Source: a virus. Taken from it: 63,084 nucleotides of DNA. This document shows, one piece after another, positions 41,656-62,737 of the stretch. The stretch is from positions 1 to 63,084 of IMG/VR virus record IMGVR_UViG_3300002835_000181. One strand, 5' to 3'. The notes below the pieces were generated by a model. The model was not told where the DNA came from, did not search any database, and worked only from the letters and a program-made list of their open reading frames with translations. The stretch's first letter is position 1. The number at the start of each line of letters is the position of its first letter. Made by a program: the position numbers and the translations under genes.

Positions 41656-41679
41656 TATTTAGTCTCCATATACACAAAA

Positions 41680-44911: not shown

Positions 44912-44949
44912 ATTAATTCTCCAGTAAAATATGGTTGGTTATAAACTAA

Positions 44950-44955
44950 TACACC
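44950..44955 (-). promoter_or_regulatory. Putative late promoter motif GGTGTA before the tail tube gene
   Basis: GGTGTATTAGTTTATAAC on the - strand, 38 bases before the tube ATG, just outside the preceding gene. One of eight matching sites in the late region. Confidence 0.45.
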
Positions 44956-44957
44956 AT

Positions 44958-46025
44958 TTAATTCTGAATATCAAAAATTATCTCTACTGTTAGCTTTACG
45001 CTAGATTCTGCAAAAAATGGACTAAATGACTGAACATCACTAGCAAAAATATCTATTAATCTAGCACTATTCCAATAATAAACCTTACACTCTAATAATT
45101 TATCATATTTTAATGCGTTTGGATTTAGTGTTCCGTCTATTAAAAACGGCTGAACTCCGTATTTAATAACCAGATTAGTATCATACATCCTTATTACTTT
45201 ATCTTGTTGTAATCTTAAAATATCTATAATTTTATTACGATCAGCCATAGTTTCTGATACTATATGAAGCAGCAATTCTTGTTTCATAACAAGAGATTTA
45301 TCTCCCAACTGCCAAGGCTTGGATAGTCCTCTTGAAACTGTTTCAATAATAATTGCTGGTAATTGTACTCTATTATTACTTAATATACTAAAATCGCCCT
45401 TATTTAATTGCTTGAAGTGTTCACTGTTCGCATCGGTTTGATATTGTAATTGTCTCCACCATTGAGCATTATCATAATTATAAATTTGTAACCACCGATA
45501 GCTATATTCCATTTCCACTTTGCTATTTAGTGGTATAGCAGTATTGAATACTATTCTGCTATTAATATAGTCAACTTTATATGCGTAGGTTCCAACAGTA
45601 TTTAAAGGATAAAAAGTATTATTAATGTAAATACCAGTAATAAGATTTGGAGATATTGATTGAATATACTCTTCTGGACAAGGAGTTGCTTCTAAAATTG
45701 AAACAGGGCAGGGTGTCGATGGAGTTATAACAATATCTGGTTCTATACATTTACTATAAGAAATATCATCTTCCCATATCCAATCTTTTCTCATAGTTTG
45801 CCAAACTTGACCATTATTAAAATTAGGATCATTCGTTGGTTTTAGTAATGAAAGAGGATTTCCGTATATATTTTGATCGGGTTTTGCAACATTAATAAAT
45901 CCTCCAATATTTAAGAATCCCCAATCTAGAAAACTTTTAATATTATTTTCAATCTGTGACATTAATAAATGTTGTCCAATATTATCAACGCCACTAAATT
46001 TTTCATTTCCTAAATTATAACTCAT
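44958..46025 (-). CDS. Head-tail connector/neck or tail terminator-like protein (355 aa)
   Basis: 355 residues; the ATG overlaps the previous gene (ATGA). A Pro/Cys insert (PDIVITPSTPCPVS...ATPCPEEY) and an aromatic beta segment (ITGIYINNTFYPLNTVGTYAYKVDYINSRIVFN) are visible. The latter resembles an exposed beta domain, as found on neck or tail decoration proteins. The C-terminal half is mixed alpha/beta. Role assigned by order only. Confidence 0.5.
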   Translation of the reverse strand: MSYNLGNEKFSGVDNIGQHLLMSQIENNIKSFLDWGFLNIGGFINVAKPDQNIYGNPLSLLKPTNDPNFNNGQVWQTMRKDWIWEDDISYSKCIEPDIVITPSTPCPVSILEATPCPEEYIQSISPNLITGIYINNTFYPLNTVGTYAYKVDYINSRIVFNTAIPLNSKVEMEYSYRWLQIYNYDNAQWWRQLQYQTDANSEHFKQLNKGDFSILSNNRVQLPAIIIETVSRGLSKPWQLGDKSLVMKQELLLHIVSETMADRNKIIDILRLQQDKVIRMYDTNLVIKYGVQPFLIDGTLNPNALKYDKLLECKVYYWNSARLIDIFASDVQSFSPFFAESSVKLTVEIIFDIQN

Positions 46026-46663
46026 TTCATCGCCTCTTTTAAAATATTATTAATTTCACTATCAACAGAGTCTATGGCTCGTGTTATCCAATTGTTATTT
46101 TGTGTGCCAGCAAATTCTGGAGGAACACTCCACTTGCCTTTTTGTACTCCTCTCATGATAGCTCGTCCGGTACGAGATCTTGGATTAACCCCAAATTCTA
46201 CAACATAGTCTTTAATAATAGTTTGATTGCCAAATAATAATAACCATTCCAACCAATTTAAATCTACTCCTTTTTCTGTTGTTAATACGGCAGCAGACGA
46301 ATTAATAACATCGGAATAATCCCCACTAATCATATTAATACTAAAACCACCAGATATTTTATTATTATTAATTGATACGCTTTTATAGTCTGTATTAATT
46401 TTTTTCCAAAAGTTTATAATAGATGATAGTCTACTATCGCTATCTGGTAAACCAAATTCATATTTTAAATCACCAGATAATAACGAATTATACTCAGGAC
46501 TATTTTTAATAGCATCAATTATAGTATTAATAATTTTAGGTTTAACTCGATTAAAAATATTTTGTAAATACTTATTTAGTTCTGGTTTTAATGCTCTTAG
46601 TATTTTACCTTCAATTTCATTAGTATTTTCAACAATAAATACTCTGCTATTAAGATTACTCAT
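46022..46663 (-). CDS. Head-tail connector protein (213 aa)
   Basis: 213 residues from the ATG that overlaps the upstream stop (TAATG); a TTG 18 bases further upstream is less likely. It contains a long N-terminal helix and an HK97 gp10/neck-like end (GVNPRSRTGRAIMRGVQKGKWSVPPEFAGTQNNNWITRAI). That end fits the 'minor tail/head completion' family with a basic C-terminal half. Confidence 0.6.
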   Translation of the reverse strand: MSNLNSRVFIVENTNEIEGKILRALKPELNKYLQNIFNRVKPKIINTIIDAIKNSPEYNSLLSGDLKYEFGLPDSDSRLSSIINFWKKINTDYKSVSINNNKISGGFSINMISGDYSDVINSSAAVLTTEKGVDLNWLEWLLLFGNQTIIKDYVVEFGVNPRSRTGRAIMRGVQKGKWSVPPEFAGTQNNNWITRAIDSVDSEINNILKEAMK

Positions 46664-47193
46664 TACTGTACACTTTGCCAAGTAGTAACTATAAAACTAT
46701 TATCTCCAAAACCCATTGGTATAGGATCTCTGTATCTAATATATTTATTTAAACTTAAATCTGTAATATTAGTATCTATAATAATATATGATGCATTTTT
46801 AATATTGGCATAATGTGATATATTGCATAGAGATTGTATTTTACCATCTACGAAATTTACGCTTTCTAATTCTAGAGGAGCCATACCAAAAAATGCGGGT
46901 TTGATAATACCAAGATATAGCTCTTTTTCATTAGAAAAGCTAAGACTTCCAACACCGGCGCAATAGGGACAAATTTGTCCATCTATAAAAGGTATAGGTC
47001 CACCGGGTTCGTATCTGTTGGTGGATCTTCTGCTAATTGAATCATAAATACAATTTGGACAATCTTGTAGTTTGGTATTTTCAAATACTAATTTACAAGG
47101 TACTGTTAATGCAGTATCTTCTAATAAGGCATTTATCATGTCCTTAAATGTTTGTTTATGGGCCGATGTAATAATACCAGTAAATATACTCAT
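46663..47193 (-). CDS. Head-tail joining-type protein with zinc-like Cys pairs (176 aa)
   Basis: 176 residues. Two CxxC pairs (DCPNCIYD...GQICPYCAGVG) are separated by about 32 residues containing NRYEPGGPIPF. This insertion pattern is seen in phage head-closure proteins. The remainder is a small beta domain. It is in the connector slot between the 47206 gene and the neck genes. Confidence 0.6.
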   Translation of the reverse strand: MSIFTGIITSAHKQTFKDMINALLEDTALTVPCKLVFENTKLQDCPNCIYDSISRRSTNRYEPGGPIPFIDGQICPYCAGVGSLSFSNEKELYLGIIKPAFFGMAPLELESVNFVDGKIQSLCNISHYANIKNASYIIIDTNITDLSLNKYIRYRDPIPMGFGDNSFIVTTWQSVQ

Positions 47194-47205
47194 ATTTTTA
47201 TTTGA

Positions 47206-47739
47206 TTAATAAAATTGATTATTTTTAAATCTACTATGATTAGAATCTGAATTATTAAGATTCTGAGGATCAAAATTATTTCCAACAAAAGGACTAAATA
47301 TTGCTCTAATAGCTGTAGCATTACCAATATTATGATCTAGTACTAATTGTTCGTATAGCTTGCACGGACCCATATTTAAAATATCTCTATACCCAGCAAG
47401 TGTACCATTAACACTTAAACTAGCAGGCCCTAAAGCTGCTCTAAGGCCTTCTCCGGCCGCCTTGGTTCTAAATGTACTTTGATCTAATAGACAGGCCGCT
47501 TTAAGAGATACCAGACCAATAAAGTCTATATCTCTAACTTCTGGATCGCTAGGATCTGGACTTATGGTGGTTGCTACAACATTAGTTGTATAAGTATTAT
47601 CAAAATTAACTTCCATAATAACATACTGAGCAGCAATTACAGTTAATTGTATTAATCTATCATCGCTATAGGTTGGAGATGTAGATAAGTCATTAATTAA
47701 ATTTCTAATAATTAATGGTATTTCGGTTTCCCAGTACAT
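47206..47739 (-). CDS. Head-tail adaptor-like protein (177 aa)
   Basis: 177 residues from ATG 47739 (MYWETEIPLIIRNLINDL), preceded by AGAAAGG at a good distance. A longer in-frame TTG start at 47799 would run through the terminator and is rejected. The helical N-terminal part, followed by ACLLDQSTFRTKAAGEGLRAALGP, suits a gp6-like head-tail adaptor. The first gene after the capsid transcription block. Confidence 0.6.
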   Translation of the reverse strand: MYWETEIPLIIRNLINDLSTSPTYSDDRLIQLTVIAAQYVIMEVNFDNTYTTNVVATTISPDPSDPEVRDIDFIGLVSLKAACLLDQSTFRTKAAGEGLRAALGPASLSVNGTLAGYRDILNMGPCKLYEQLVLDHNIGNATAIRAIFSPFVGNNFDPQNLNNSDSNHSRFKNNQFY

Positions 47740-47772
47740 AATGAACCTTTCTAAAAAGAGCCATAAGTATAT

Positions 47773-47778
47773 TACACC
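47773..47778 (-). promoter_or_regulatory. Putative late promoter motif GGTGTA right after the capsid terminator
   Basis: GGTGTAATATAC on the - strand, directly behind the U-tract of the capsid terminator and 33 bases before the next ATG (47739). A new start of transcription is needed exactly here. Confidence 0.5.
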
Positions 47779-47784
47779 TAAAAA

Positions 47785-47812
47785 AAAAGGCCAGCCCAAA
47801 GGCCAGCCTTTT
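47785..47812 (-). terminator. Rho-independent terminator after the major capsid gene
   Basis: On the - strand: AAAAGGCTGGCC, loop TTTG, GGCTGGCCTTTT (12-bp stem with two G-U pairs), followed by a run of T. On the + strand it also ends in a T-rich run, so it can work in both directions. It lies 27 bases after the capsid stop. Confidence 0.85.
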
Positions 47813-47838
47813 CTTTTTCAGTTAATCAAAACTTGATA

Positions 47839-48849
47839 TTAGAGAGAGCCAAGTAGTACTCTGCGGTTGTCGAGAACAGCAAAGCCTTGTTCAGCCCAGC
47901 CGTAGAAGCCTGCTCTCTTCTGACGATGTAGTGTATCGTCTTCGAAGATTTGAACTTGCTCACGAACTGGCATTATGAAACTATCTCTCTTGCGTAGATC
48001 AAGACCAACTACTAGTTCAACGTCGCCTTCTGGAAGAGTGGCTGATAGAACGTTGTCATAGAATAGTTGATATTCTTGACCTTCACCAAGTTCGTCACGA
48101 TCATGGAGGTTGACGCCGAATACTCTGTTTAGAGTACCATCAGCAGCAACATAGATCTCACGACGAGTGATTTCGTCTACTTGATCAACGCCCCAGTTGC
48201 GAATGTCTTCCATAGCTTCTGGTGAAACGTAAAGATCTGTAAGTAGACCACGATTATTACTAGCACTATTACCGCCACCATTGCGACGCATAACAGTCTT
48301 CATTAGACTAACTAGACGCTTGGTGAATTGACCGCTATCGGCATCGCTGTCGAATACTACGATATTGCGATCAACGCCAGCAGCTAGTAGTGTGTGCCAG
48401 CCGTCATCATTCATCTTCTTAACAAATTGAGCTTCCATAACTTCCATAGCACGACCAACAACGTCCCAGCGGGCGTCACGGGCATACTTTAGGAGGTAGT
48501 CAATTGAGGCGCCAATGTCATAGGTTGGAACCATGACGTAATCGCCTTCAACATGACGCTCTGGAATGTAACCATGATTAGGAATTGTGTAGGCCACAAA
48601 GTCCTTCTCGGTACCAGGAGCAAGGAAATCTAATGGAAATTCAGGAGTAGCACTTTGAGCCAATACGATTGGTTCGAAAATGTTATCAAGAATATCGCCA
48701 TTTAGAATACCTTGACGAAGTGGTAATTCTAGGGCTTTTGCAAATTCTGCATTTGCGGCTAAAGCCTCTTCTTTATTCAGTGAACCTGAACGAACAAGAA
48801 GATCTGTAAGTTCTGGTGTTGGTTTAAAGGTCTGATTATTAGATGACAT
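47839..48849 (-). CDS. Major capsid protein
   Basis: 336 residues, HK97-fold-like, with an N-terminal arm rich in Ala/Leu/Glu. The body has IVLAQSATPEFPLDFLAPGTEKDFVAYTIPNHGYIPERHVEGDYVMVP. The C-terminal half has YVSPEAMEDIRNWGVDQ and NLHDRDELGEG. Its codons are less AT-rich than those of the neighbours, as expected for the most abundant protein. It is followed by a strong terminator and preceded by the decoration and scaffold genes. Confidence 0.85.
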   Translation of the reverse strand: MSSNNQTFKPTPELTDLLVRSGSLNKEEALAANAEFAKALELPLRQGILNGDILDNIFEPIVLAQSATPEFPLDFLAPGTEKDFVAYTIPNHGYIPERHVEGDYVMVPTYDIGASIDYLLKYARDARWDVVGRAMEVMEAQFVKKMNDDGWHTLLAAGVDRNIVVFDSDADSGQFTKRLVSLMKTVMRRNGGGNSASNNRGLLTDLYVSPEAMEDIRNWGVDQVDEITRREIYVAADGTLNRVFGVNLHDRDELGEGQEYQLFYDNVLSATLPEGDVELVVGLDLRKRDSFIMPVREQVQIFEDDTLHRQKRAGFYGWAEQGFAVLDNRRVLLGSL

Positions 48850-48871
48850 TTTTTTTCTCCATTAAATTTGA

Positions 48872-49321
48872 TTACTGAATGTTAACTGAGACTTTAGCGA
48901 AACCATCAGCATCCTTACCACTAAGGAATGTGCCGATTTTGACAGCGTTTGTTGATGTTGTTGATACTGTGCCACTTGGGCCAACATAAGCAGAATCACC
49001 AGCAGATGGACTACCATCAACTAGGTCAGTTGTAACTTGGCCAACTCTTAGAAGAGTAACCTTGCCACCAACTTGAACTTCGTCTTTGTGCCAGTTGATA
49101 TGCTGTCTTGTTAGATCAAGATTTACAACATCATTTAGTAGTACGCCTGCTGGAACGTTGCCAGAAGCAGCTGCTGCATAAGCAACTACAGCATCAGCAT
49201 CGTCCATTGATACGCCTACACCACCTGTTACGAAAGAAACTACGCCGCCTCTTTCAGCTGTTGTATTCATGAAAAAAGAGATATCTGTTAAATGTTCAAT
49301 ACGATCTGGTTTAAGAGCCAT
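48872..49321 (-). CDS. Capsid decoration/stabilisation protein
   Basis: 149 residues, small and beta-rich, with GGVVSFVTGGVGVSMDDADAVVAYAAAASGNVPAGVLLNDVV and VTLLRVGQVTTDL. This is the pattern of the DUF2190-type head decoration proteins found between scaffold and capsid. Clear AGGGAG before the ATG, balanced codon use like the capsid gene. It probably binds the outer capsid surface. Confidence 0.7.
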   Translation of the reverse strand: MALKPDRIEHLTDISFFMNTTAERGGVVSFVTGGVGVSMDDADAVVAYAAAASGNVPAGVLLNDVVNLDLTRQHINWHKDEVQVGGKVTLLRVGQVTTDLVDGSPSAGDSAYVGPSGTVSTTSTNAVKIGTFLSGKDADGFAKVSVNIQ

Positions 49322-49323
49322 TG

Positions 49324-49950
49324 TTATTCTCCCTTATTAAGTTTTTTACCGAGTCTGTTGCAAACAAAGTCTACGAGAGCTGCACGAGTTGAATCAACTT
49401 CTGGAACTTCTTCGCCGCCAACAACGGGAACAATTTCTTCAGTTGTTTCTACATTTTCAAGAGCCTCGGTAATGTCATTGGTTTCTTCAACTTCATCAGC
49501 CTTGGCCATCTTATCTTCTTTTTTCTTTTTGGTCTTGAGCATGTCTGTCATTGCAGCAAATGTTTCATCGTCAACATTTTCAAACTTCTCAAGTACGTTA
49601 TCAAGATTATCATCTTCATAACCGTTCTCAATGAGAGCAGCTTTGCGCATCATTTTCTTTTCTTTCTTCATATAGCCTGCAACTGCTTCATTAGCTTGAT
49701 TAAGCTTTGTTTCTAGTTCGACTATTGAAGCTTCCATCTTTTTCATTTTTTCTTCATAGTCTTTCATCTTTTTAGCAGCTTCTTCCTTTTCGGTTACAAG
49801 CTGATCTTTTTCGCTAGTTAGACTATTCAATGTTTCTGCATGAGCATTCTTCATAGTTTCGATTTCGGTCTTGAGTTCTGTTACTGCTAATTCAGCAGCC
49901 TTTGTGGCTTCTGAGCAGTCAGCAACAGTATTTTCAGCTTGTTCACTCAT
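49324..49950 (-). CDS. Nested in-frame scaffold protein (208 aa)
   Basis: The ATG at 49950 (MSEQAENTVADCSE...) lies within the protease/scaffold gene and has GGAG nine bases upstream. A GGTGTA motif stands at 49990-49995, 39 bases before this ATG. The product would be the bare coiled-coil scaffold, the arrangement of lambda C/Nu3. It should be made in excess over the protease form. Confidence 0.7.
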   Translation of the reverse strand: MSEQAENTVADCSEATKAAELAVTELKTEIETMKNAHAETLNSLTSEKDQLVTEKEEAAKKMKDYEEKMKKMEASIVELETKLNQANEAVAGYMKKEKKMMRKAALIENGYEDDNLDNVLEKFENVDDETFAAMTDMLKTKKKKEDKMAKADEVEETNDITEALENVETTEEIVPVVGGEEVPEVDSTRAALVDFVCNRLGKKLNKGE

Positions 49951-50760
49951 TGTATTATTCTCCGTTTGTTCGGTTGACTGAAAAATAGTTACACCTGATT
50001 TTGTAAAATCGTCATTTTTTTCTAAAAATTTAAATTCGTCTTTACTAAATATTATACTATCTGGATTTGCTGGTCTGTCTACATAGCCCTTACCACTAAA
50101 TGTAATATTTCGTAAAACTCTACCAATTTTATAGTTTTCGTGCTCTCCCATACCACCATATGCTCTAAGATATTTAGTTAAATATGCTGTATTATTATCA
50201 CGAGATAAAACTTTATATTCTCCAGTATCTTTATTAATTAATCCATAATCAAAACCCTTGAAAAAGCATTCCATGCTCACGTATTTCAAGCCATTCTCAA
50301 TCTCTGCTATGAGCTTGTTGGTTCTTTCTTGGAGTTCAGGTTTGGTATAAGATTTATAGATTACGGCTCCGGTCAAAATATGATACTTTTCTGGTAAATT
50401 CTCTATTGGTGTATTTTCGTCAATTAAAATGCCATCTTGTGTAACAGGATAGTTTGATACTATATGGCCAATAATTAAACCTTCATCATGTTCTAGATTT
50501 GTAGGTTTGTGTTCTGGACTATGGCGAGCGGCCCATACTTCATTTTTATCGAAAATATCGTCATTTTTATTCCAATTGCTACTTACTAAAATAGACTGAG
50601 TGTAATATAAATCACTGTCGTTGACAGAAGCTAAAGCCTTAAAAGTTTTAGATTTTAGCTCTTTACTGCATGGTTCTATTGCAGATGCGTATGATATGCT
50701 GGCGGATGTCTGAATTTTTTCAGCTATACCATCATCGTATTCTTGTTGAAATATTTGCAT
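49324..50760 (-). CDS. Prohead protease fused to scaffold domain
   Basis: 478 residues. Residues 1-230 are a prohead serine protease: His91 in LEHDEGLIIGHIV and Ser162 in GLKYVSMECFF form the likely His-Ser pair, and RPANPDSI ends the domain. Residues about 270-450 are an acidic coiled-coil scaffold (EIETMKNAHAETLNSLTSEKD and onward). The C-terminus (EVDSTRAALVDFVCNRLGKKLNKGE) is basic and may bind capsid protein. An internal in-frame start produces the scaffold alone. Confidence 0.85.
   Translation of the reverse strand: MQIFQQEYDDGIAEKIQTSASISYASAIEPCSKELKSKTFKALASVNDSDLYYTQSILVSSNWNKNDDIFDKNEVWAARHSPEHKPTNLEHDEGLIIGHIVSNYPVTQDGILIDENTPIENLPEKYHILTGAVIYKSYTKPELQERTNKLIAEIENGLKYVSMECFFKGFDYGLINKDTGEYKVLSRDNNTAYLTKYLRAYGGMGEHENYKIGRVLRNITFSGKGYVDRPANPDSIIFSKDEFKFLEKNDDFTKSGVTIFQSTEQTENNTMSEQAENTVADCSEATKAAELAVTELKTEIETMKNAHAETLNSLTSEKDQLVTEKEEAAKKMKDYEEKMKKMEASIVELETKLNQANEAVAGYMKKEKKMMRKAALIENGYEDDNLDNVLEKFENVDDETFAAMTDMLKTKKKKEDKMAKADEVEETNDITEALENVETTEEIVPVVGGEEVPEVDSTRAALVDFVCNRLGKKLNKGE
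49990..49995 (-). promoter_or_regulatory. Putative late promoter motif GGTGTA before the nested scaffold start
   Basis: GGTGTAACTATTTTTC on the - strand, inside the protease coding sequence and 39 bases before the internal ATG at 49950. The spacing equals that of the intergenic sites. Confidence 0.4.
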
Positions 50761-50780
50761 TTTATAACTCCAGTATAATA

Positions 50781-52961
50781 CTAACTATACACCGCTGAAT
50801 AAAATGATGACTTAATTAATTTATTTTCTTCACTAGTAATTGTGCGATTTAATTCGTTACTAATTTGTTTGATCCAGTAATTTAAACTATTAAATTTGGA
50901 GATAATATCTGTATGATTAATTTGACTTATAGCCTTATTTATATTAATCTCATTAATAGAACTATTAATTTCTAGTCCTAATAAAATTTTAGTTTTAAAA
51001 TCATCTAGTTCTTTACTTTCTTTAGCAGATAGTTTTCTAAGGTTATCTTTATTATAAAATTCTAATAACATAGGATTGACAATTTCGCTGATCTTGTCTT
51101 GAGCTTCATTTGCCCATATGGCTAAAGACGCTCCTGTTCTTGGGGCGAAATCTCTTTCTTTTCTTTGTTGTGAATCTTTACTATTTTTTGGGCGACCTTC
51201 TCCGGATATTCCAATGGGAGAACTAGATCCAGGATTTCCACCAATTTTTGGAGCCGTCGGAAACTTAGCTTTCATTTCTAGTCCAGTAATTTCTCCTCGT
51301 TTTTTAGGATCTAATTCTAATCCTACTTGACTTGGTGTTACGATTCCAAGCTGTAAAGCAATCTTCTTAAGATTATTTTCAAAATTAGCATCATAATAAG
51401 GACCAGCTTTAGGTACCATACGTTCAGCATCTCTATCTCTATTTTCTCTATTAAGGCGATATTTTTCCATATTCGGATCAATGCCGAATTTCATTTGGAT
51501 CAGTTCATCGCTAATTAAGTTTCTATCTGCAAGTTGTACTAGGAGTGCTTTTTCAGCATCTTCATTGCTAAGATCCATTCTGTCGAATTCAATTTTTGCT
51601 GGATATTTAAATCCCATAGCCTTTTGTACCAACTCTAATTCTTTTTCCCAAAAATTAACTAGTACATCACGCCCATATTGCAGTCGTTGAGTGAGTGTTT
51701 TTAGACTTATAAAGTTATTGGTTGTTCCGGATGCTCCGAACGTTCCTGTTAATGTTGGTGGAATTCCAAGTCCAGCATATACGCTATTAAGATGAGGAGT
51801 ATATTTTCCTTCACCTAAAAAGTTATGAACATTAGTATTGCTTTCAATAAGTTCGATATCTGGACCCCAAACGAGATCCATAGTTCCGCCTCCAACGTTA
51901 TTGCCCAAAATTGCTGACAGTTTGGCTGCTGCTGCTTTGGTTGGGGCGATCTTGTGCTCAAGACTACCCAATTTGAAAATTCTGATATTAGAAACAGCTC
52001 CATCAAGAGCACACATATCAGCTAATTTTAGTTTTTCTAAGATTGTTATATCATCCATGATAGCGTATATCATCGGGTATGCCCATACTTGCCAATCATC
52101 TTTTTTATAATGAAAAACTAAAACCTTGTCGGGATTTAATACGTATGGCTTTTTTGTTTTCGCTGCTTCCAAAATATCTTGAGGTAACTGATTTACAATA
52201 TTTTTTTCCGCATCATTCTTAGGAGCGTTAATAGTACGTCTAAGCGAAGACGGTAATGTAACTCCATATATTTTTTTCTGAGCAAATGATGATAAAGATC
52301 CACCAAGAACATCGACATATACAGGATCTATAAATGTATACTTCCAAGGAATTTCTTTTTTATCAATATCAACATCATCATATTCTGGATTGATAATATC
52401 TGCCGTAGCCGTAGCTCTATACATTCTATCAATAGTTTTTGTACTAATTTTAGCTGTTTGTTTACTAACTACTATATTTGCTGTACGATATAAATTATTT
52501 AGAAATCTTTCACTGCGATCTCTACCATTAACTTTCTTAAACCATGCCTTATAAAAACGTTCTATTCTTTTATTTGGGTGAACAACTCTGATGCCCTGAG
52601 AAGCAAAATCACCCATCAAGTCAATAACATTCTTTACTAGTCCTACTCTTTGATAAATTTCATCTGCTCTACGAATAATATTTTTAACTTTGTTAGGAAC
52701 AGCTTCTTCTGGACGGAATGAATAGTAGTCAGACTTTGTGAGTCCTGGTCTACCATCAACATTAGAATCAAGACCAGAAAAGTCTAATCTGGTTCGACGA
52801 GCTGTAGATTTACCAATACCATTATATTCGGCTAATGATTGTGATGATACTTGTAGGGCGTCTTTTTTGCTTTGTAAATCTTCACCCCAAGTAACATAGG
52901 CTTCTTCGTTTGATAGTAACTCGTTTTCGATAGCTTCACTTTTTGGATAATTTTTAGCCAT
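50781..52961 (-). CDS. Portal protein
   Basis: 726 residues. Portal features include an N-terminal region with VGLVKNVIDLMGDFASQGIRVV. IPWKYTFIDPVYVDVLGGS marks the wing, and GLGIPPTLTGTFGASGTTNNFISLKTLTQRLQYGRD is typical of portal proteins. The C-terminal extension carries a disordered, charged stretch. It follows the terminase large subunit, and GGTGTA lies before its start. Twelve copies should form the DNA channel. Confidence 0.85.
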   Translation of the reverse strand: MAKNYPKSEAIENELLSNEEAYVTWGEDLQSKKDALQVSSQSLAEYNGIGKSTARRTRLDFSGLDSNVDGRPGLTKSDYYSFRPEEAVPNKVKNIIRRADEIYQRVGLVKNVIDLMGDFASQGIRVVHPNKRIERFYKAWFKKVNGRDRSERFLNNLYRTANIVVSKQTAKISTKTIDRMYRATATADIINPEYDDVDIDKKEIPWKYTFIDPVYVDVLGGSLSSFAQKKIYGVTLPSSLRRTINAPKNDAEKNIVNQLPQDILEAAKTKKPYVLNPDKVLVFHYKKDDWQVWAYPMIYAIMDDITILEKLKLADMCALDGAVSNIRIFKLGSLEHKIAPTKAAAAKLSAILGNNVGGGTMDLVWGPDIELIESNTNVHNFLGEGKYTPHLNSVYAGLGIPPTLTGTFGASGTTNNFISLKTLTQRLQYGRDVLVNFWEKELELVQKAMGFKYPAKIEFDRMDLSNEDAEKALLVQLADRNLISDELIQMKFGIDPNMEKYRLNRENRDRDAERMVPKAGPYYDANFENNLKKIALQLGIVTPSQVGLELDPKKRGEITGLEMKAKFPTAPKIGGNPGSSSPIGISGEGRPKNSKDSQQRKERDFAPRTGASLAIWANEAQDKISEIVNPMLLEFYNKDNLRKLSAKESKELDDFKTKILLGLEINSSINEININKAISQINHTDIISKFNSLNYWIKQISNELNRTITSEENKLIKSSFYSAVYS
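50788..50793 (-). promoter_or_regulatory. Putative late promoter motif GGTGTA before the protease/scaffold gene
   Basis: GGTGTATAGTTAG on the - strand, overlapping the last portal codons and 27 bases before ATG 50760. Confidence 0.45.
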
Positions 52962-53000
52962 AATAACTCTATTTATATTGTAATTGTATTGTAATTATAT

Positions 53001-53006
53001 TACACC
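53001..53006 (-). promoter_or_regulatory. Putative late promoter motif GGTGTA before the portal gene
   Basis: GGTGTAATATAATTAC on the - strand, in the spacer between terminase and portal, 39 bases before the portal ATG. A T4-late-like TATAAATA also occurs in this spacer close to the ATG. Confidence 0.45.
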
Positions 53007-53007
53007 A

Positions 53008-55053: not shown

Positions 55054-55501
55054 ACTTATCGTAAACTCTTTTCATAATGGATAGTGCTGTTTTTTCTGCC
55101 CAATGAGGAGATCCGCAAAATATGACATGTATATTATGATATATCGATAATTCTGTAACAAATTTCATAATAAATGCTGGAGAGATTTTGATATGTTTCC
55201 ATAGTTTCTGTGGAATATCCGAACCAACAGGATAGTTCATCATCTGATCATAATTGCATTCGATAAGAATATATGCGTGTTTATATTTGCTCATACGTTC
55301 TATAACGTCCTTAAATCTTTTTTCTGTCATATTATTAGCAAGTTCTGCTATTCCATTTTTTCTCTCTATGCAAAGTAGATCCTCTAGTCCTTCTATACTA
55401 TAATCTCCAGTATCTAATTTTTTATTAGCTTTAGCATGATAGGGAAATTCCCACGGATGCTGTTCTCTGGTGTCAACTATAATAGTAAAATTATCACTCA
55501 T
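55034..55501 (-). CDS. ERCC4-type nuclease
   Basis: 155 residues with the XPF/ERCC4 nuclease motifs: VDTRE (9-13), LDTGDYS (GD at 32-33) and CIERKN (ERK at 46-48). It is a single catalytic domain without helicase or HhH part. It overlaps terminase on one side and the HNH gene on the other. It may trim branched DNA before or during packaging. Confidence 0.85.
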   Translation of the reverse strand: MSDNFTIIVDTREQHPWEFPYHAKANKKLDTGDYSIEGLEDLLCIERKNGIAELANNMTEKRFKDVIERMSKYKHAYILIECNYDQMMNYPVGSDIPQKLWKHIKISPAFIMKFVTELSIYHNIHVIFCGSPHWAEKTALSIMKRVYDKYVPNQE

Positions 55502-55761
55502 TTTTTACTCGCTACAATTCTCATAAAAGTGGGAGCAAATACTTCTTCTTGACCCTTAATCGCATCATGATGATATCTACACAATGTTACGCCATTATCT
55601 ACTACAAATCGTAGTCCTGGAAAATCAGCCCAATTTTTTATATGGTGAGCATTTAGTTTATATTTTAGATTACAGTTTGGCCATTGGCACTTAAAATGAT
55701 CTCTTTCATAAACACTAGTTCTCCATTGTATATATTTTGGATCTTTAAAATTACGTTTCAT
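55498..55761 (-). CDS. Small HNH endonuclease next to terminase
   Basis: 87 residues from the ATG at 55761 (MKRNFKDPKYIQWRTSVYERD); nine bases upstream another ATG is possible. Motifs: CQWPNCN zinc pair, NAHHIKNWAD, DNGVTLCRYHHD. This matches the HNH proteins that accompany HK97-type terminases and are needed there for cohesive-end cutting. It starts inside the terminase small subunit-like gene and ends inside the ERCC4 gene. Confidence 0.85.
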   Translation of the reverse strand: MKRNFKDPKYIQWRTSVYERDHFKCQWPNCNLKYKLNAHHIKNWADFPGLRFVVDNGVTLCRYHHDAIKGQEEVFAPTFMRIVASKK

Positions 55762-56563
55762 CAGATACACTTTCAGGAGTTAAAAATGGTTTATCTAGTG
55801 TCTTATCAGCATACGAATGATATTGTTGAAGATCTTTAATGGCTTTTTGAGTAGCCATACTGATAATTTCCATCTCTCGTCCTTCTCTCTCTCTTATTTC
55901 TTCATCTTCAAGCATACGTATAAGGCCTAACCAACTGCTTTTGCCATCTTCGATTCTTTTAATACGTTGCTCTCTGGTAGCTTTGAGATCTTTACTAATT
56001 TTTTGTTGTTCACCTAATAATTTGGTATATTCATTTGTATAATTAGCAATACTATTACGAGCAAAACTAAGCTGTGTTTCTAAATTAGCCAATTTGGGAA
56101 TATCTCTTTGATCTTCTGGTTTTTCATATTCGGCATCTACTAGACGCTGTAATTTTTCTGTTTCTGCAATATGACGCTTGCGTTCTTTCATAGAACGATT
56201 AATTAAAATATCTATTGTAATAAATTGTTTAATTTGTAGTTCTTCTGCTGGTAAAACATCTTCTCTAAACTGTCTTAGTAGATTAATCCAAATGTTTTCA
56301 AAGTATTCTAATTCGCCACTATCATTATCAAACTGTTTAACTATTTCACTCCAGAAAGTTTTACTATGTAATTTATTCTTTAAATATTCTTCATCGTTAA
56401 CAATGGTATCGTCTTCTAATAATCTATTCTCGATGATATATCTTTTAATGGGGGCGGTATTACGATTTAGTTGATCGGCAATAGTATCTATAGTTAATGA
56501 TTTAACATTATCTCGTATAAATTTTTCTTCATCTAAACTTAATTGTCCACGTTTTTTACTCAT
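55751..56563 (-). CDS. Terminase small subunit-like DNA-binding protein
   Basis: 270 residues. The N-terminal HTH (LDEEKFIRDNVKSLTIDTIADQLNRNTAPIKRYI) is followed by a long charged coiled coil (KERKRHIAETEKLQRLVDAEYEK and onward). Position and build agree with a small terminase that recognises phage DNA. The ATG overlaps the sigma factor stop. Confidence 0.65.
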   Translation of the reverse strand: MSKKRGQLSLDEEKFIRDNVKSLTIDTIADQLNRNTAPIKRYIIENRLLEDDTIVNDEEYLKNKLHSKTFWSEIVKQFDNDSGELEYFENIWINLLRQFREDVLPAEELQIKQFITIDILINRSMKERKRHIAETEKLQRLVDAEYEKPEDQRDIPKLANLETQLSFARNSIANYTNEYTKLLGEQQKISKDLKATREQRIKRIEDGKSSWLGLIRMLEDEEIREREGREMEIISMATQKAIKDLQQYHSYADKTLDKPFLTPESVSDET

Positions 56564-57182
56564 AATTATGATCTTTTAAAATTGATTGGATATGTTTTTG
56601 CAGTTGAACCAACTCGTTTTTAGTTACTTTTATGCCGCCCTTAACCTTTAAATAAGTTTCTCTATATTTTGTATGAATATTATCCTCAATAATTTTTAAT
56701 ATTTCGTTATTAGATATATTGTCTAATAAATTATTTTCTGATTGATGTTCTGAGGTTTCTATATCAACAGGCTTCATTAGATTTTTTTTGGTGTTGTTTC
56801 GTTCTATCCATTGGGAATAAATGGAGCAATTGTCCTTATTGGTATATTTAGCACACTGATTGGAACTTTTTTTATAATCAGGATCAAAAAATGGACAACC
56901 TACACAAACATTATCAGGGCGATAGTAGTTGTCTCTTTTAAAATTAAATAAACGATTTCTTACGTGGGTCCACAAAAAGTTTTCTAGTGGGCGTTTGTGA
57001 TCATAATTTTCTAATCCTTCAAGAGCAAACATGGCGGCTTGCTGTTTCATATCATCAATTTCATGATATCCAAATTTAAATTTATAGATTAGTTTTTTAC
57101 TTATATTATCAACGGCCTCTAAAAAATCTTTTTCTGTAATTTTTTTTCTGGTAAAAATATCATTCTTTTTTGGTTTTGTCAT
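56556..57182 (-). CDS. Phage sigma factor with a four-Cys insert (late transcription)
   Basis: 208 residues. Residues 15-85 match sigma region 2: YKFKFGYHEIDDMKQQAAMFALEGLENYDHKRPLENFLWTHVRNRL is split over helices 2.1-2.4. Cys93, Cys96, Cys110 and Cys119 follow, a possible zinc knuckle where most sigmas have none. The C-terminus has a weak region-4-like helix pair only. It resembles T4 gp55 in lacking a clear -35 reader. It is encoded just before the packaging genes and probably drives late transcription. Confidence 0.7.
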   Translation of the reverse strand: MTKPKKNDIFTRKKITEKDFLEAVDNISKKLIYKFKFGYHEIDDMKQQAAMFALEGLENYDHKRPLENFLWTHVRNRLFNFKRDNYYRPDNVCVGCPFFDPDYKKSSNQCAKYTNKDNCSIYSQWIERNNTKKNLMKPVDIETSEHQSENNLLDNISNNEILKIIEDNIHTKYRETYLKVKGGIKVTKNELVQLQKHIQSILKDHNYE

Positions 57183-57312
57183 TATCGTCTTCTAATAATT
57201 CCTCTATGGTTTTATTATCAACATTCTGAGCAGCTAGATCCTTTTCTATATTTAGATCTTCTGAAGCTGTGACTTTTAGTGTGGAATCTACAAAATGATC
57301 AATTTTATTCAT
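57160..57312 (-). CDS. Small acidic protein before the sigma factor (50 aa)
   Basis: 50 residues (MNKIDHFVDSTLKV...), acidic at the C-terminus (IEELLEDDNDKTKKE), overlapping the sigma ATG by 23 bases. AAGGTG precedes its ATG, and a good promoter lies upstream. Nothing like it is recognised. It may regulate the sigma factor. Confidence 0.5.
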   Translation of the reverse strand: MNKIDHFVDSTLKVTASEDLNIEKDLAAQNVDNKTIEELLEDDNDKTKKE

Positions 57313-57320
57313 ATTTCACC

Positions 57321-57348
57321 TTGCATTGATATTAATCTGGTCTAATAT
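57321..57348 (+). promoter_or_regulatory. Possible divergent promoter for the AT-hook/thioredoxin pair
   Basis: TTGCAT (57321-57326), 16 bases, TAATAT (57343-57348) on the + strand, overlapping the opposing promoter. Weaker than that one. Confidence 0.35.
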
Positions 57349-57350
57349 AC

Positions 57351-57378
57351 ATTATAGTTCTTTTTTACACTAAGTAAA
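57351..57378 (-). promoter_or_regulatory. Sigma70-like promoter for the sigma factor operon
   Basis: On the - strand: TTTACT (57378-57373), 16-base spacer, TATAAT (57356-57351). It would start about 30 bases before ATG 57312. Host-type promoter, as needed to make the late sigma factor first. Confidence 0.6.
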
Positions 57379-57394
57379 GGAAAAGGGTGATTAT

Positions 57395-57595
57395 ATGAGT
57401 CGTAATTATAAAAAGTGGACCCAAACAGACATTCAGTTTATATTAGACAATCAAAATATGCTGGATAAGGATGTTGCTGTGAAACTCAGTGAAATAACTG
57501 GTCAAAGTATATCAGCAAGCATGGTTAGACGTCAAAGACGCAAGAGTGGTATTGCCAAAAGAAGAGGGCGTCCAAAGAAGGTTGCATCAGTATGA
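57395..57595 (+). CDS. Small AT-hook DNA-binding protein (66 aa)
   Basis: 66 residues. An HTH-like N-terminal part (KWTQTDIQFILDNQNMLDKDVAVKLSEITGQSISASMVRRQRRKSG) ends in KRRGRPKKV, a classic AT-hook. The start follows AAAGGAAAAGGGTG. In an AT-rich genome it could bind widely, as a nucleoid-type or regulatory protein. It is divergent from the sigma factor operon. Confidence 0.65.
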   Translation: MSRNYKKWTQTDIQFILDNQNMLDKDVAVKLSEITGQSISASMVRRQRRKSGIAKRRGRPKKVASV

Positions 57596-58011
57596 TTACG
57601 GAACAGGAATATTTAAAGTCATTAACTAAACTACAGGAAAGGGAAAAATTATCATTATTAGCTAGTGAGAATGGTAAAAAATTTTTAGAAGAATATAAGA
57701 AGGCACTAGAAACTGCCAAAAAAGATAATAAACAAATTTTCTTATTATTTTATATGGTTGGTTGTGATGGATGTAATGTTATTAAATATTTACTAGATAA
57801 CAATGATAGTATTAAAAATATATTATCTAATTATATAGTGCTATATTATAATGCTACTCAAACCAGAAGCTCTTTGGTACAAAAATATAATATATATTCT
57901 TATCCGGCCTGTTTGATTATTAATGATTCTGAAAAAGTAATTAAGCAGAAGTTGGGGATTAAAGTGTTTGATGATCCGTCTGTGGATTTTTTAGCTTGGT
58001 TAAATAGTTAA
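57592..58011 (+). CDS. Thioredoxin-like protein
   Basis: 139 residues with a thioredoxin fold: FLLFYMVGCDGCNVIKYLL (active Cys58 and Cys61) and the cis-Pro loop SYPACLI (Pro104). There is no signal peptide, so it acts in the cytoplasm. The ATG overlaps the AT-hook gene stop. It may reduce the phage ribonucleotide reductase, or help the Cys-rich adhesins encoded next to it on the opposite strand. Confidence 0.8.
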   Translation: MITEQEYLKSLTKLQEREKLSLLASENGKKFLEEYKKALETAKKDNKQIFLLFYMVGCDGCNVIKYLLDNNDSIKNILSNYIVLYYNATQTRSSLVQKYNIYSYPACLIINDSEKVIKQKLGIKVFDDPSVDFLAWLNS

Positions 58012-58021
58012 TTTTTAATTA

Positions 58022-59542
58022 TTATGGTATTGGATTCAATATCATATTAAATTCACAATCTGGCTCAACCAATTCTTCATTTTCATCATAGTATGGATTA
58101 AAAGCATTAGCAAACCATCCTGCAAATACTGTAGCCACATCAGTAACAATATCGTACGGATTAAGTGGAGGGTTAGGAATATTTACTCCAGCACTAAAAA
58201 TTGTAGTTGTTCCATTGATAACATTAGCACTACTAAATGTTAGAGTCATACTTGTGGATGAAATACTTCTATTAACCTGTAATTCATAAAAAACTTCCCC
58301 ATATCCTGCTATAATTTGACTTCCTGTTGCTTGATTATTAAAATTACCATTAATATCAAAAGCTGCTGTAATAATTAGTGTTGAATTTAAAATACTATTA
58401 ATATAGTTAGCTAGTGCTAAAGCGTCCGGATTATTAACAGCTGGTCCAGATGTTGGAAATTGACATCCCTCTATTTTAAATTTTAGTTCGTCACAGTTTA
58501 ATACTGGTTCAGGGGTGCTGGTTGGAACACAGTCTGCTGGATCAACTTCTGAATCTACTATGGATCCTAAAGGAACAGGATCTGTGCATCCTACAGCAAC
58601 ACAGCTGGCAAATATTAAATATGACTCATCAGTATCTGCATCTTCTGCTACTAAAAATATCATGGTAACACCATTATGACATCCTTCTTCGCTATTGCAG
58701 TTTAATAAAAATAGAGCATCATTAATTTCGTCATTAATATTAGGAATATTTATAGTAAAAGATGCTGATCTTTCTCCTGCTGTGTATGGTACGAAGCCGT
58801 CAACAGGAGTACTCTGACTAGTACAATTATTATAATTGTTCATATCAAATTCTTCACCAACATACATTCCTTCTGGAGTAATAATTTTAGGAATAAAATT
58901 TGTGCGACAGCATCTGTGTCCACCGGCGCATGATACTTGTCTCAAACCTATATCTGGAACATTAACTTCTCTAATAGTATCAAGATAAAATGCATATCCT
59001 TTAATGGTTGTTTTAAGATTTGGTGGAATAGTAATAATTACTGGTTCTACAGGAATGCATTTTGGAGGAGATACACATAAGCCAGTGATATGGTCAACTA
59101 CTGCACAAGATCCACATTCATTACTAGATAATTTTAAATCTTTAACTAGGCCGAATGTATTATTTTTAGGATAAGATAATAATTCATTAAAAAATGATGT
59201 ATATGAACTATTACCATAATTTATAATGGAAGATAGTCTTTGATTACATAATGGATAATTCGCGCTTTCTGGATATCCACTATCAAACTGCCCATTAGAA
59301 AAATCATATTTATTACTACGTAAAGCTTGCGGAGTTAATGTTAATCGTACATTTCTAGATGTATTATATGTTATTCCAAATGGAATATTAATATTATCAT
59401 AAAGATCAGATAGTATTTTTTTAGAATAAGTATAACGAGACGATGCTAAAATAGTTTCTTTATCATAATTTGTATTAAAAAGCGGCTTAATAGTATGATC
59501 TATATGATTAGCTTGTTTATTAGAATCAGGAGTAAATAACAT
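58022..59542 (-). CDS. Adhesin/tail fibre-like protein, paralogue A (506 aa)
   Basis: 506 residues. The first 130 residues (MLFTPDSNKQANHIDHTIKP; SSRYTYSKKILSD; RLTLTPQALRSNKYDF) are closely related to the start of the 59596-62367 protein. A shared middle domain carries GYAFYLD...GGHRCCRTNFIPKI and CHNGVTMIFLVAEDA. The C-terminal 150 residues differ. Cys are frequent. Likely a virion surface protein whose variable end meets the host. It converges on the thioredoxin-like gene with a ten-base gap. Confidence 0.65.
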   Translation of the reverse strand: MLFTPDSNKQANHIDHTIKPLFNTNYDKETILASSRYTYSKKILSDLYDNINIPFGITYNTSRNVRLTLTPQALRSNKYDFSNGQFDSGYPESANYPLCNQRLSSIINYGNSSYTSFFNELLSYPKNNTFGLVKDLKLSSNECGSCAVVDHITGLCVSPPKCIPVEPVIITIPPNLKTTIKGYAFYLDTIREVNVPDIGLRQVSCAGGHRCCRTNFIPKIITPEGMYVGEEFDMNNYNNCTSQSTPVDGFVPYTAGERSASFTINIPNINDEINDALFLLNCNSEEGCHNGVTMIFLVAEDADTDESYLIFASCVAVGCTDPVPLGSIVDSEVDPADCVPTSTPEPVLNCDELKFKIEGCQFPTSGPAVNNPDALALANYINSILNSTLIITAAFDINGNFNNQATGSQIIAGYGEVFYELQVNRSISSTSMTLTFSSANVINGTTTIFSAGVNIPNPPLNPYDIVTDVATVFAGWFANAFNPYYDENEELVEPDCEFNMILNPIP

Positions 59543-59572
59543 AATTTGACCTTAAAAAATTTAATAAATAGA

Positions 59573-59578
59573 TACACC
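59573..59578 (-). promoter_or_regulatory. Putative late promoter motif GGTGTA before adhesin A
   Basis: GGTGTATCTATTTATT on the - strand, in the spacer between the two large adhesins, 30 bases before ATG 59542. Confidence 0.45.
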
Positions 59579-59595
59579 ACTAAAATACAATTAGA

Positions 59596-62367
59596 TTAGC
59601 ACGACGGTGGTGGGTTGGGAACGAATGTTCCAGCAGTACCTCCGTCATTACAGGCGCTATCGGTAAAGGTTGCTGTACCACCAACATTGCCTCTATTTTT
59701 AGAAGTATCTGAGAATGTTGCGTCAGTAGCAACCGATCCTGTTGTTTCATTAATACTTGAATCAGTAAATAGGGCATGTTCCATATATCCATAATTTTTA
59801 CTACTATCATGGAATGTTACTGTACTATGAGAGAAATACATTGTACTAGATTGTCTTGTTGATGTATTATAAAAATCTCCACTTCCATTAAATATAAAAT
59901 TAGAACCCATGCTTGAAGTATCATAAAATATTACATTTCCGGTAACAGTACCTTCTGTTGCTGATGAATTATCATAAAATTCTGCATTTCCAGTTATAGT
60001 GGATCTATCAACATTTGAGCCTGTTCTGAACTTAACTGGAGAAGCTGATATTGTGATATCCGCATCTTGTAAAAAGCCTCCATTAATAAATTCACAAGTT
60101 TCTGATGCTTGTATCTGAATGGGGCTAGAGCAACTGTCGCCAGCAAATACATGTCCACCGTCACATAATAAATTAGCGCATGATAATGATACTCCTAAAG
60201 TACCACTAGTATTGATTGTTACATTATTCAATACGATACTATTAGAAGAAAAATAATCGTTTGGTATTTTACTGACATTGCCAGCAATTAGCACATTGTC
60301 ACCATTCGCCGGTAAGGCGGATGCGGGACTTAATCCTGATGAATCTTCCCAATTATTTAAATTTGTCCATTCGGTATCAGTAGTACCAACAAATTTATAA
60401 GCTCCACTGGGTTGAGGATCTCGCCAAGCTTGACCATCACCATTAGAACCTGTCATTAGATTTAAACATGGTTGAGGCTCACAAACAGCATCTCCATTTT
60501 CATTAACTCGTACGGCACACTCTCCTTGAGGAACCCAACCATAACCTGAATTAAAGGGGTGAGCTGGATATCTATCGTTAACTCCAGAACATAATACTAT
60601 AGTACCGTCCCATTCGTCAATAGTATCCCATGTTTCTCCATCACATAATACTTGAAGATCAAAATTTTTGGATCCCACAGTACCATAGAATAGTGGAGTG
60701 AATGGGTTGGGTAAATCATTTAAATATCCAAAAGTATTATCATAACTTATAATTCCACTACCATAAATATAATTATCTTGATCAGTAATTCTCCAAACAT
60801 TATAATTTGGACAATTACCAATATTATCACATTCTTCACAAGTTCCACATTCATATGGTCCACCAACTTGCTCCCAACCTTCTCCTGGGTCTGTTTCGGA
60901 GCATGTTCTGGTTACGCAATCACCTCCTTGTTCAAAACAATATACTGGCGCCGGAGGATCGCATGGATCATCAGAGCAAGAACTTTCACATTCTCCAATG
61001 GTAGCATATGGCCCACTATCTTGAGTCCATCCATCGCCAGATGGAGTAGATGTAGCACATTGTCTAACCACACAATCTTGATCTGGACAGTTGGGTTGAT
61101 CAATTTTTGAAAAGCAATAATACGGAGGATCGCAAGGATCGTCGGCACAATCTGGACATGATCCTATGTATGGACCTCCAACCTGAGTCCAACCAGTTTC
61201 TCCAATAGGAGATTGTGCTGCACAGGTACGTATTATACAATCTTTAAAACCATCATACATTGATATTGTCTTTTCAAAACAATATACTGACGATGGTGGA
61301 GGAGGCGGTTCACAAGGTACTGCGGAAGATTCTGTATCACAGTCTATAGTTCCTATTGGCTTTTTACCAAAAGATCCTGGAACTACACAACTAGAAAATA
61401 ATAATACTTTTTCATTGGTTGTTGTTTCGCCAACCAAGAAAACCATTGTTACTCCATTATGACATCTGCTAAGTGTACAATCTAAATAAAATGATAATGA
61501 TGTTAATACTGATGGATCATTCAATACAAATTGAAAAGTATCTGATCTATCATAAGGACTAACTCTTGTAAATCCTGGAGCTGGTATTTGTCCACTACTG
61601 CCTCCATAAAAATAAATATTATTCATACTAATATTTCTATTAGCAACTATAATATTGTTATTATCATCAACTAATATTGGTTTAAATATTGTTGAATTGC
61701 ATGTATGACCACCCCAACAGGTAGGATTTCGGTCTCCTATTCCTGGTATATTTATAGGTCTACTATTATGTAAATAAAATGCATAACCTTCAATTACTGG
61801 TTTAAAATCTTGATATAATGGTTCTGGAGTACAATCTATTTGAGGAATACATTCTTCAGGAGGAGAGCAGAGACAAGACGATGGATCTAGTACTGATCCT
61901 GATGGACAAACTATAGAACATACTGGCGGATTTGTAGTGTCACACAAATCGCTACTATTATTTCCATCCACTATATATAGTGATGTGTCTTGAGGATATA
62001 ATAAGTTGTCTTCTGTTTTGCGACTCCAATGCAAACTGCCATATTTATATATTGATGTTAAATTTTGATCACAAAAATAATAAACATCATTAAATGGATA
62101 TCCACGATCAAATTGCCCACGATTAAAATCGTATTTATTACTTCTAATAGCCTGTGGGGTCAGAGTTAGTCTTATATTTTTAGCTATATTATATGTTATA
62201 TTAACTGGTATACTAAAATATTCATACGAATCAGATAATATTTTTTTAGAATAGGTATAGCGTGATGAGGATAATACTGTTTGAGTACTATTATTCTTAT
62301 TTGATACTGGTTTTACTGTATGATCTATGTGATTAATATTTTTAGATGGATCGGGAGTAAATAGCAT
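59596..62367 (-). CDS. Adhesin/tail fibre-like protein, paralogue B (923 aa)
   Basis: 923 residues. N-terminal domain shared with paralogue A (MLFTPDPSKNINHIDHTVKP), then the same GYAFYLH and CHNGVTMVFLVGE blocks. Three tandem Cys-rich repeats of about 50 residues follow, with the pattern YCF...DC..R.C...P.G.GW.Q.GGPY...C. A G8-like stretch then leads to a C-terminal solenoid of short repeats (AEFYDNSS, VIFYDTSS, ATFSDTSKNRG, ATFTDSACN). It is probably a long receptor-binding protein. Confidence 0.65.
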   Translation of the reverse strand: MLFTPDPSKNINHIDHTVKPVSNKNNSTQTVLSSSRYTYSKKILSDSYEYFSIPVNITYNIAKNIRLTLTPQAIRSNKYDFNRGQFDRGYPFNDVYYFCDQNLTSIYKYGSLHWSRKTEDNLLYPQDTSLYIVDGNNSSDLCDTTNPPVCSIVCPSGSVLDPSSCLCSPPEECIPQIDCTPEPLYQDFKPVIEGYAFYLHNSRPINIPGIGDRNPTCWGGHTCNSTIFKPILVDDNNNIIVANRNISMNNIYFYGGSSGQIPAPGFTRVSPYDRSDTFQFVLNDPSVLTSLSFYLDCTLSRCHNGVTMVFLVGETTTNEKVLLFSSCVVPGSFGKKPIGTIDCDTESSAVPCEPPPPPSSVYCFEKTISMYDGFKDCIIRTCAAQSPIGETGWTQVGGPYIGSCPDCADDPCDPPYYCFSKIDQPNCPDQDCVVRQCATSTPSGDGWTQDSGPYATIGECESSCSDDPCDPPAPVYCFEQGGDCVTRTCSETDPGEGWEQVGGPYECGTCEECDNIGNCPNYNVWRITDQDNYIYGSGIISYDNTFGYLNDLPNPFTPLFYGTVGSKNFDLQVLCDGETWDTIDEWDGTIVLCSGVNDRYPAHPFNSGYGWVPQGECAVRVNENGDAVCEPQPCLNLMTGSNGDGQAWRDPQPSGAYKFVGTTDTEWTNLNNWEDSSGLSPASALPANGDNVLIAGNVSKIPNDYFSSNSIVLNNVTINTSGTLGVSLSCANLLCDGGHVFAGDSCSSPIQIQASETCEFINGGFLQDADITISASPVKFRTGSNVDRSTITGNAEFYDNSSATEGTVTGNVIFYDTSSMGSNFIFNGSGDFYNTSTRQSSTMYFSHSTVTFHDSSKNYGYMEHALFTDSSINETTGSVATDATFSDTSKNRGNVGGTATFTDSACNDGGTAGTFVPNPPPSC
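60825..61285 (-). repeat. Three tandem Cys-rich protein repeats in adhesin B
   Basis: Three copies of about 50 codons with the framework YCF - DC - R.C - GW.Q.(G/S)GPY - C..C, joined by DDPCDPP linkers. Spacing of Cys is kept while other residues drift, so the repeats are old rather than freshly duplicated. Confidence 0.7.
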
Positions 62368-62400
62368 AATAAGTTCTCGTATAGATTTTATATAACTAAA

Positions 62401-62694
62401 TTACACCACAAGGATCAATATTAGTATCTGATAGGCATTCTGAGTATCCGGAACATAAATTTTCAGTAAATCGTATAGTCCGAAAAAGGAATAATTATTT
62501 TGCAGAGTTGGTGTGTTGTTGTAATTATTAATGTGGGCCATATAGGAGATGAAGCTTTTAATAACGTTGGGGGGCAACAGATTGTTGCTGATCCAACTAT
62601 TAGATAGTGGATATGATTGATTAAATGAGGGTGAAAAGAGTTGAGGGCTGTTACTATTAACTTCTTTAGATTCGTTAATAACAAAATTACTCAT
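62401..62694 (-). CDS. Short adhesin-family protein C, possibly truncated or frameshifted (97 aa)
   Basis: 97 residues. SQSYPLSNSWISNN-type and NNYSFFGLYD segments resemble the YPLCNQ...NNTFGLVKD part of paralogue A. The last residues (ILILILVV) look unnatural. In the -1 frame the end instead reads TENLCSGYSECLSDTNIDPC, a typical Cys-rich ending of this family, with its stop at 62396. A shift at the T-run near 62487 would join them. It may be a decaying copy, a sequencing error or a programmed shift. Confidence 0.45.
   Translation of the reverse strand: MSNFVINESKEVNSNSPQLFSPSFNQSYPLSNSWISNNLLPPNVIKSFISYMAHINNYNNTPTLQNNYSFFGLYDLLKIYVPDTQNAYQILILILVV
62402..62407 (-). promoter_or_regulatory. 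Putative late promoter motif GGTGTA before adhesin B
   Basis: GGTGTAATTTAGTTATAT on the - strand, 34 bases before ATG 62367. Confidence 0.45.
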
Positions 62695-62731
62695 AAAATA
62701 TTTCTAGTTATAATGTGTTTCGTATATTCTT

Positions 62732-62737
62732 TACACC
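62732..62737 (-). promoter_or_regulatory. Putative late promoter motif GGTGTA before gene C
   Basis: GGTGTAAAGAATATAC on the - strand, 37 bases before ATG 62694. Confidence 0.4.

Follow-up and report, generated by a model that had tools for sequence, protein, structure and literature searches.

Background

SPO1 gp33/gp34 and SigO/RsoA of B. subtilis are split or two-protein sigma systems. The T4 late promoter consists of a single 8-bp TATA element at -10; it lacks a -35 element and is followed by AT-rich DNA, and gp55 of the same phage is a very small sigma factor in which only domain 2 is recognisable (PMC2988020, PMC7892883).

Here we analyse a stretch of 63,084 nucleotides of viral DNA (IMG/VR record IMGVR_UViG_3300002835_000181), referred to as the window, in which an earlier note had proposed that GGTGTA(A/T) is the single element of late promoters recognised by a phage sigma factor. 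Our results indicate that an element of the NGTGTAT type very probably marks the start of late messages in hundreds of uncultivated phages. With fairly high confidence we regard GGTGTA(T/A) as the form taken in one clade by a one-element, -10-type late promoter with the core GTGTAT, to which a small phage sigma factor would bring the host core polymerase. From sequence comparison we infer three things, namely initiation at the element, its reading by the sigma factor encoded at 56556-57182 and the use of host core polymerase.

Like the T4 late system (gp55, with gp33 and gp45, acting at TATAAATA), this arrangement combines one element near -10 of a predicted start, the lack of a -35 element, AT-rich DNA downstream and a sigma factor with domain 2 only. 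Unlike T4 it has GGTGTAT or TTTGTGTATA (together NGTGTAT) in place of TATAAATA, and unlike gp55 the sigma factor of clade A carries a four-cysteine insert and has no clear C-terminal clamp epitope. A search of 11 records, the contigs of which may be incomplete, gave no match over the cut-off to PF02916 or PF02767 for a sliding clamp of the T4 (gp45) or DnaN type. The arrangement appears to work like the T4 late system, but we do not class it as a member because of the other sequence, the insert and the apparent lack of a clamp. The element of clades B and C, TTGTGTATAAT, resembles a sigma70 extended -10 promoter in including TATAAT preceded by TG; unlike in that promoter, the TG directly adjoins TATAAT, clade A retains only the TAT of the hexamer, and a phage sigma factor is the expected reader. 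As in SPO1 gp33/gp34 and SigO/RsoA there is a sigma protein with region 2 only, whereas the region-4 protein here has the appearance of a complete sigma factor in its own right and the late promoters lack a -35 element. A literature search for GGTGTA as a whole word together with phage and promoter gave no match, although motifs are usually printed within longer strings, and the matches to GTGTAT were noise.

Results

Eight late sites in the window

The earlier note placed GGTGTA(A/T) on the - strand 27-39 nt (end of motif to start codon) before eight late starts, one site lying directly behind the capsid terminator and another inside a gene, ahead of a nested start. All eight positions and gaps proved correct (Table 1), the former site indeed following a hairpin and T-run and the latter lying within an open reading frame 45 nt before an in-frame ATG. 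A possible ninth element is uncertain, being just 21 nt from the ATG of the tape-measure gene.

Table 1. Coordinates of proposed late promoter elements, associated genes and sigma factors. Positions refer to the window unless a relative (L number) is given; the first base of each element is the higher coordinate.
Feature	Position	Strand	Remarks
Late promoter element GGTGTAA	62731-62737	-	before gene 62401-62694 (start 62694)
Late promoter element GGTGTAA	62401-62407	-	before gene 59596-62367
Late promoter element GGTGTAT	59572-59578	-	before gene 58022-59542
Late promoter element GGTGTAA	53000-53006	-	before portal-position gene 50781-52961
Late promoter element GGTGTAT	50787-50793	-	overlaps 3' end of portal-position gene; before protease/scaffold gene 49324-50760
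Late promoter element GGTGTAA	49989-49995	-	within protease/scaffold gene, upstream of nested start 49950
Late promoter element GGTGTAA	47772-47778	-	directly 3' of capsid-gene terminator (start 47739)
Late promoter element GGTGTAT	44949-44955	-	before tail gene 43919-44911
Possible ninth element TGTGTAT	41670-41676	-	3' of second hairpin-T terminator, before tape-measure gene 35149-41655; uncertain
Nested in-frame reading frame, likely scaffold	49324-49950	-	GGAG Shine-Dalgarno; GGAG..ATG conserved in relatives
Major capsid protein gene	47839-48849	-	query for finding relatives
Hairpin + T-run terminator after major capsid gene	47779-47815	-	-20.8 kcal/mol, z -3.98
Small sigma factor	56556-57182	-	region 2; insert with four cysteines; three-helix C-terminal part; proposed reader
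Second sigma	L130:7370-7948
Second sigma	L134:8183-8749
Second sigma	L142:8689-9246
Second sigma	L163:13643-14227
Second sigma	L153:8094-8747
Second sigma	L168:628-1287

The heptamer GGTGTAW occurs 15 times in the window as a whole versus 11.8 expected and is not over-represented, so that the signal lies in its position. GGTGTA is found 20-50 nt before 7 of 25 late genes versus 0.12 expected (binomial p=2e-11). It is the most enriched of all hexamers in this range before the 25 late starts, and correcting for 4096 hexamers leaves p at ~1e-7; the seven do not include the nested start. On the + strand, one of the 34 called early genes has GTGTAW in range, and its start is doubtful. The neighbouring genes 58022-59542 and 59596-62367 (window 58022-62367), with one GGTGTA element each, have near-alike N-termini (MLFTPD.NK..NHIDHT).

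Word scans among relatives

Searching IMG/VR with the major capsid protein yielded at least 598 relatives; among cultured phages the protein has no close relatives. Bacillus phage G, a relative with 20% identity in this protein, was rejected as a user of the motif, there being no enrichment of GGTGTA or GTGTAT before its late genes. We also assigned no host from genome contigs, since the five MAG contigs come from unrelated taxa and are probably binning artefacts.

GGTGTA was the top word (63 versus 4.7) in 761 non-redundant upstream regions from 117 loci, and an unbiased 7-mer scan of 187 related loci ranked GGTGTAT first (68 versus 4.4). Among single-base variants at the 187 loci, positions 2-6 are nearly fixed while A and T are tolerated at the first base. 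The sequence logo is GGTGTAT and otherwise has only weak conservation at positions 14-15, with no conserved second box around GGTGTAT and no TTGACA-like box 16-18 nt upstream. GTGTAT and GGTGTA are the top words in six long relatives of 122-238 kb; next comes TTGACA, the -35 element of host-type early promoters. GGTGTAW precedes 19 of 119 late orthologues versus 1 of 145 early ones (Fisher 1.4e-6), but because orthologous promoters share descent, this and other pooled p-values, which treat them as independent, exaggerate the significance; neither the window-only test nor the evidence from reading frames given below is affected by such kinship.

Conservation at orthologous places

Directly behind the capsid terminator, GGTGTA is found in 57 of 62 genomes. 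Upstream of the portal-position gene, 59 of 63 clade-A orthologues have NGTGTAT or GGTGTAW, often as AGTGTAT or TGTGTAT. The element before the protease gene is absent in 24-30 of ~70 clade-A genomes.

In most of ~70 distinct genomes the element is present where the portal-position gene ends, mostly as the codons xxG GTG TAT, where the residue before Val varies (A, S, T, M, L). It is also found in other frames, i.e., as GAT GGT GTA, as xTG GTG TAA across the stop codon (six genomes), or fully intergenic (two). Only 5% of the A/S/T codons of portal-position genes end in G, and GTG makes up 7% of their Val codons. The element is therefore kept across reading frames against codon usage, which argues for selection on the DNA. 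The nested scaffold start, with its own late element inside the protease gene, is conserved in about 60 relatives; this site is spelled GGT GTA in 61 cases, versus 4% of other Gly-Val pairs.

Geometry of the element

Across relatives the element lies between about 28 and 70 nt from the start codon, and many conserved sites lie 28-36 nt from the ATG, i.e., too close for a -35 element. Median distances to the start in the same genomes are 48 nt for GGTGTAW, 43 for early TATAAT and 65 for TTGACA. At 121 of 240 sites from three clades a T-purine step occurs at positions 14/15 counted from the first base of the element, compared with 23-64 at other offsets, and T at index 14 has p=1.7e-21 (240 sites). 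Within the window the step falls exactly at 14/15 at one of the eight sites and at 13/14 or 15/16 at most others. The step is also partly present in the control set of sites elsewhere (0.29 versus 0.49 at upstream sites), probably due to uncalled genes. We predict that it is the transcript start, which would put GGTGTAT at -15 to -9. Just downstream of the element the DNA is AT-rich, with a GC content of 0.25 at upstream sites versus 0.35 elsewhere.

The promoter proposed in the earlier note and its single-element nature are supported by orthologous conservation, selection at the DNA level across reading frames, the T-purine step, the -10-like distances to starts and restriction to late genes.

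Sister clades and the core of the element

In clades B (L241, L245-L324) and C (L242, L325-L404), with capsid proteins 65-68% identical, the counterparts of three clade-A promoters carry TTTGTGTATA(A)T, from which the shared core is read as GTGTAT. This core would align with the TAT of the TATAAT -10 box. Of the element originally written GGTGTA(A/T), the core GTGTA(T/A) stands, and NGTGTAT is the better notation, as GG is typical of this clade only.

The small sigma factor

The phage sigma factor had been described as having region 2 and no clear region 4, and its family bears this out: Sigma70_r2 is matched by all 41 members (best 8.8e-6), none of which has a region-4 match. The window protein alone scores 19.2 bits against Sigma70_r2, under the 24-bit cut-off. 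Its predicted structure contains a good region 2, and Foldseek ranks sigma factors highest (weak E-values; 68-76 residues overlapping region 2, rmsd 2.3-2.9). A PDB sequence search with the family gave weak sigma matches only (E 0.2-0.5), and five of the 41 members weakly match PHROG 234 (late sigma). The gene is near-universal in relatives and adjoins the terminase gene. In clade A, RPLENFLW, most of the next helix and the four cysteines, which probably bind zinc, are invariant; the sigma factors of clades B and C have no cysteine insert. A clade-B sigma factor is encoded at L243:1516-2010.

At loci with the four-cysteine sigma factor the element after the capsid gene starts with G in 64 of 67 cases, versus 0 of 13 at loci with the cysteine-less form, all 13 of which have T, C or A, mostly T. 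This switch at the first base is a clade difference and may reflect a single event. In other sigma factors region 3.0, which follows region 2.4, reads the upstream edge of the extended -10 element. We tentatively raise the possibility, which we regard as less likely than not, that sigma factor and promoter changed together, the four-cysteine insert right after region 2.4 having come with a TT to G/GG switch at the element's 5' edge. Re-pointing a single-element promoter would in this way have let one phage lineage rewire its whole late programme.

The second sigma factor and early promoters

A second sigma factor of about 190-220 aa, with regions 2 and 4, is present in 8 of 10 near-complete relatives and absent from the window fragment. 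It combines a diverged region 2 with strong region-4 matches and a sigma-like predicted fold, and has no profile-profile match with the small sigma factor. It was not detected in three of nine clade-B/C contigs, two of them of 120-126 kb, which nevertheless have the late promoters; the clade-B contigs G015 and G016 keep the motif with no second sigma detected.

Early promoters of the relatives G001, G004, G005 and G006 (loci L123, L135, L136, L140, L141 and L166) are composite, with the order TNAAG, ~8 nt, TTGACA, 2-4 nt, GCCGATA, ~7 nt, TATAAT/TATACT. CCGATA occurs within the -35/-10 spacer of 45 of 212 TTGACA promoters versus 0.6 expected, and may represent an operator or an overlapping promoter of the sigma28 type. 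The second sigma factor could be the reader of GCCGATA.

Discussion

Under the preferred reading, region 2 of the small sigma factor would bind the element and so recruit host core RNA polymerase, DNA melting would set in within the AT-rich segment that follows, and transcripts beginning ~15 nt after the first G would have leaders of roughly 13-40 nt. The promoter would work without a -35 element because the small sigma factor lacks a recognisable region 4. What the earlier note proposed of a promoter with a single element is supported; its attribution to this protein goes further, since relatives encode a second sigma factor with region 4, and we rate the region-2-only sigma as the likely reader.

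An improbable alternative accepts the late promoter and assigns it to the second phage sigma factor, or to the host sigma factor with a phage activator. The second sigma factor has strong region-4 matches and a sigma-like predicted fold, and host-type TTGACA/TATAAT at early genes means that sigma switching exists; yet GGTGTAT has no accompanying -35 element, late promoters persist where the second sigma factor was not detected, and it is the region-2-only protein that is near-universal, tied to the terminase block and equipped with an insert that covaries with the element. We consider it very unlikely that GGTGTA works in RNA, as a binding or cleavage site in 5' leaders for translation or processing of transcripts arriving from upstream. 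The motif does lie in would-be leader sequence, and phages are known to cut leaders at short G-rich motifs, as by T4 RegB, but the element directly follows terminators in most genomes, its distance to the start codon is variable, and the constant spacing of the downstream T-purine step is typical of an initiation site.

Even less credible is a two-element promoter with GGTGTA as its -35 part: sites at a distance of 28-36 nt would then have their transcription start at or after the ATG, no conserved second box appears at 15-20 nt, and the distances fit -10 instead, despite the G-rich start and A+T-rich downstream DNA that such a promoter might show. Chance or codon usage, with which the ordinary genome-wide frequency would agree, is refuted by conservation at orthologous places and across reading frames and by the rank of the word in the scans.

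A one-element late promoter read by the small sigma factor would provide a readable late-gene signal for a large group of uncultivated phages, from which late genes, nested genes and operon starts could be called by sequence. It would be a second case of the T4 plan of one element and a region-2-only sigma factor, here without a recognisable clamp, and the three clades, with two element forms and with or without the cysteine insert, would offer a natural series for specificity change in a minimal sigma factor.

Other genes were observed in passing. DNA polymerase III alpha (window 15154-19433) is split into two ORFs (15154-17028 and 17901-19433); an RNase_T-type exonuclease ORF lies in between at 17194-17904. 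A 650-aa ORF at window 31-1983 has an intein carrying a LAGLIDADG endonuclease. Several relatives contain small Cys-rich genes that begin with CxxC and are preceded by GGTGTAW (L160:2723-3199, L147:11832-12398, L151:15759-16397, L167:17560-18129 and L162:907-1527); they look like homing endonucleases, an assignment that we rejected as they have no Pfam match. The relative L130 encodes at 17012-17752 a trypsin-like protease (PF00089, E 5e-19) with a signal-like N-terminus and a GGTGTA element upstream.
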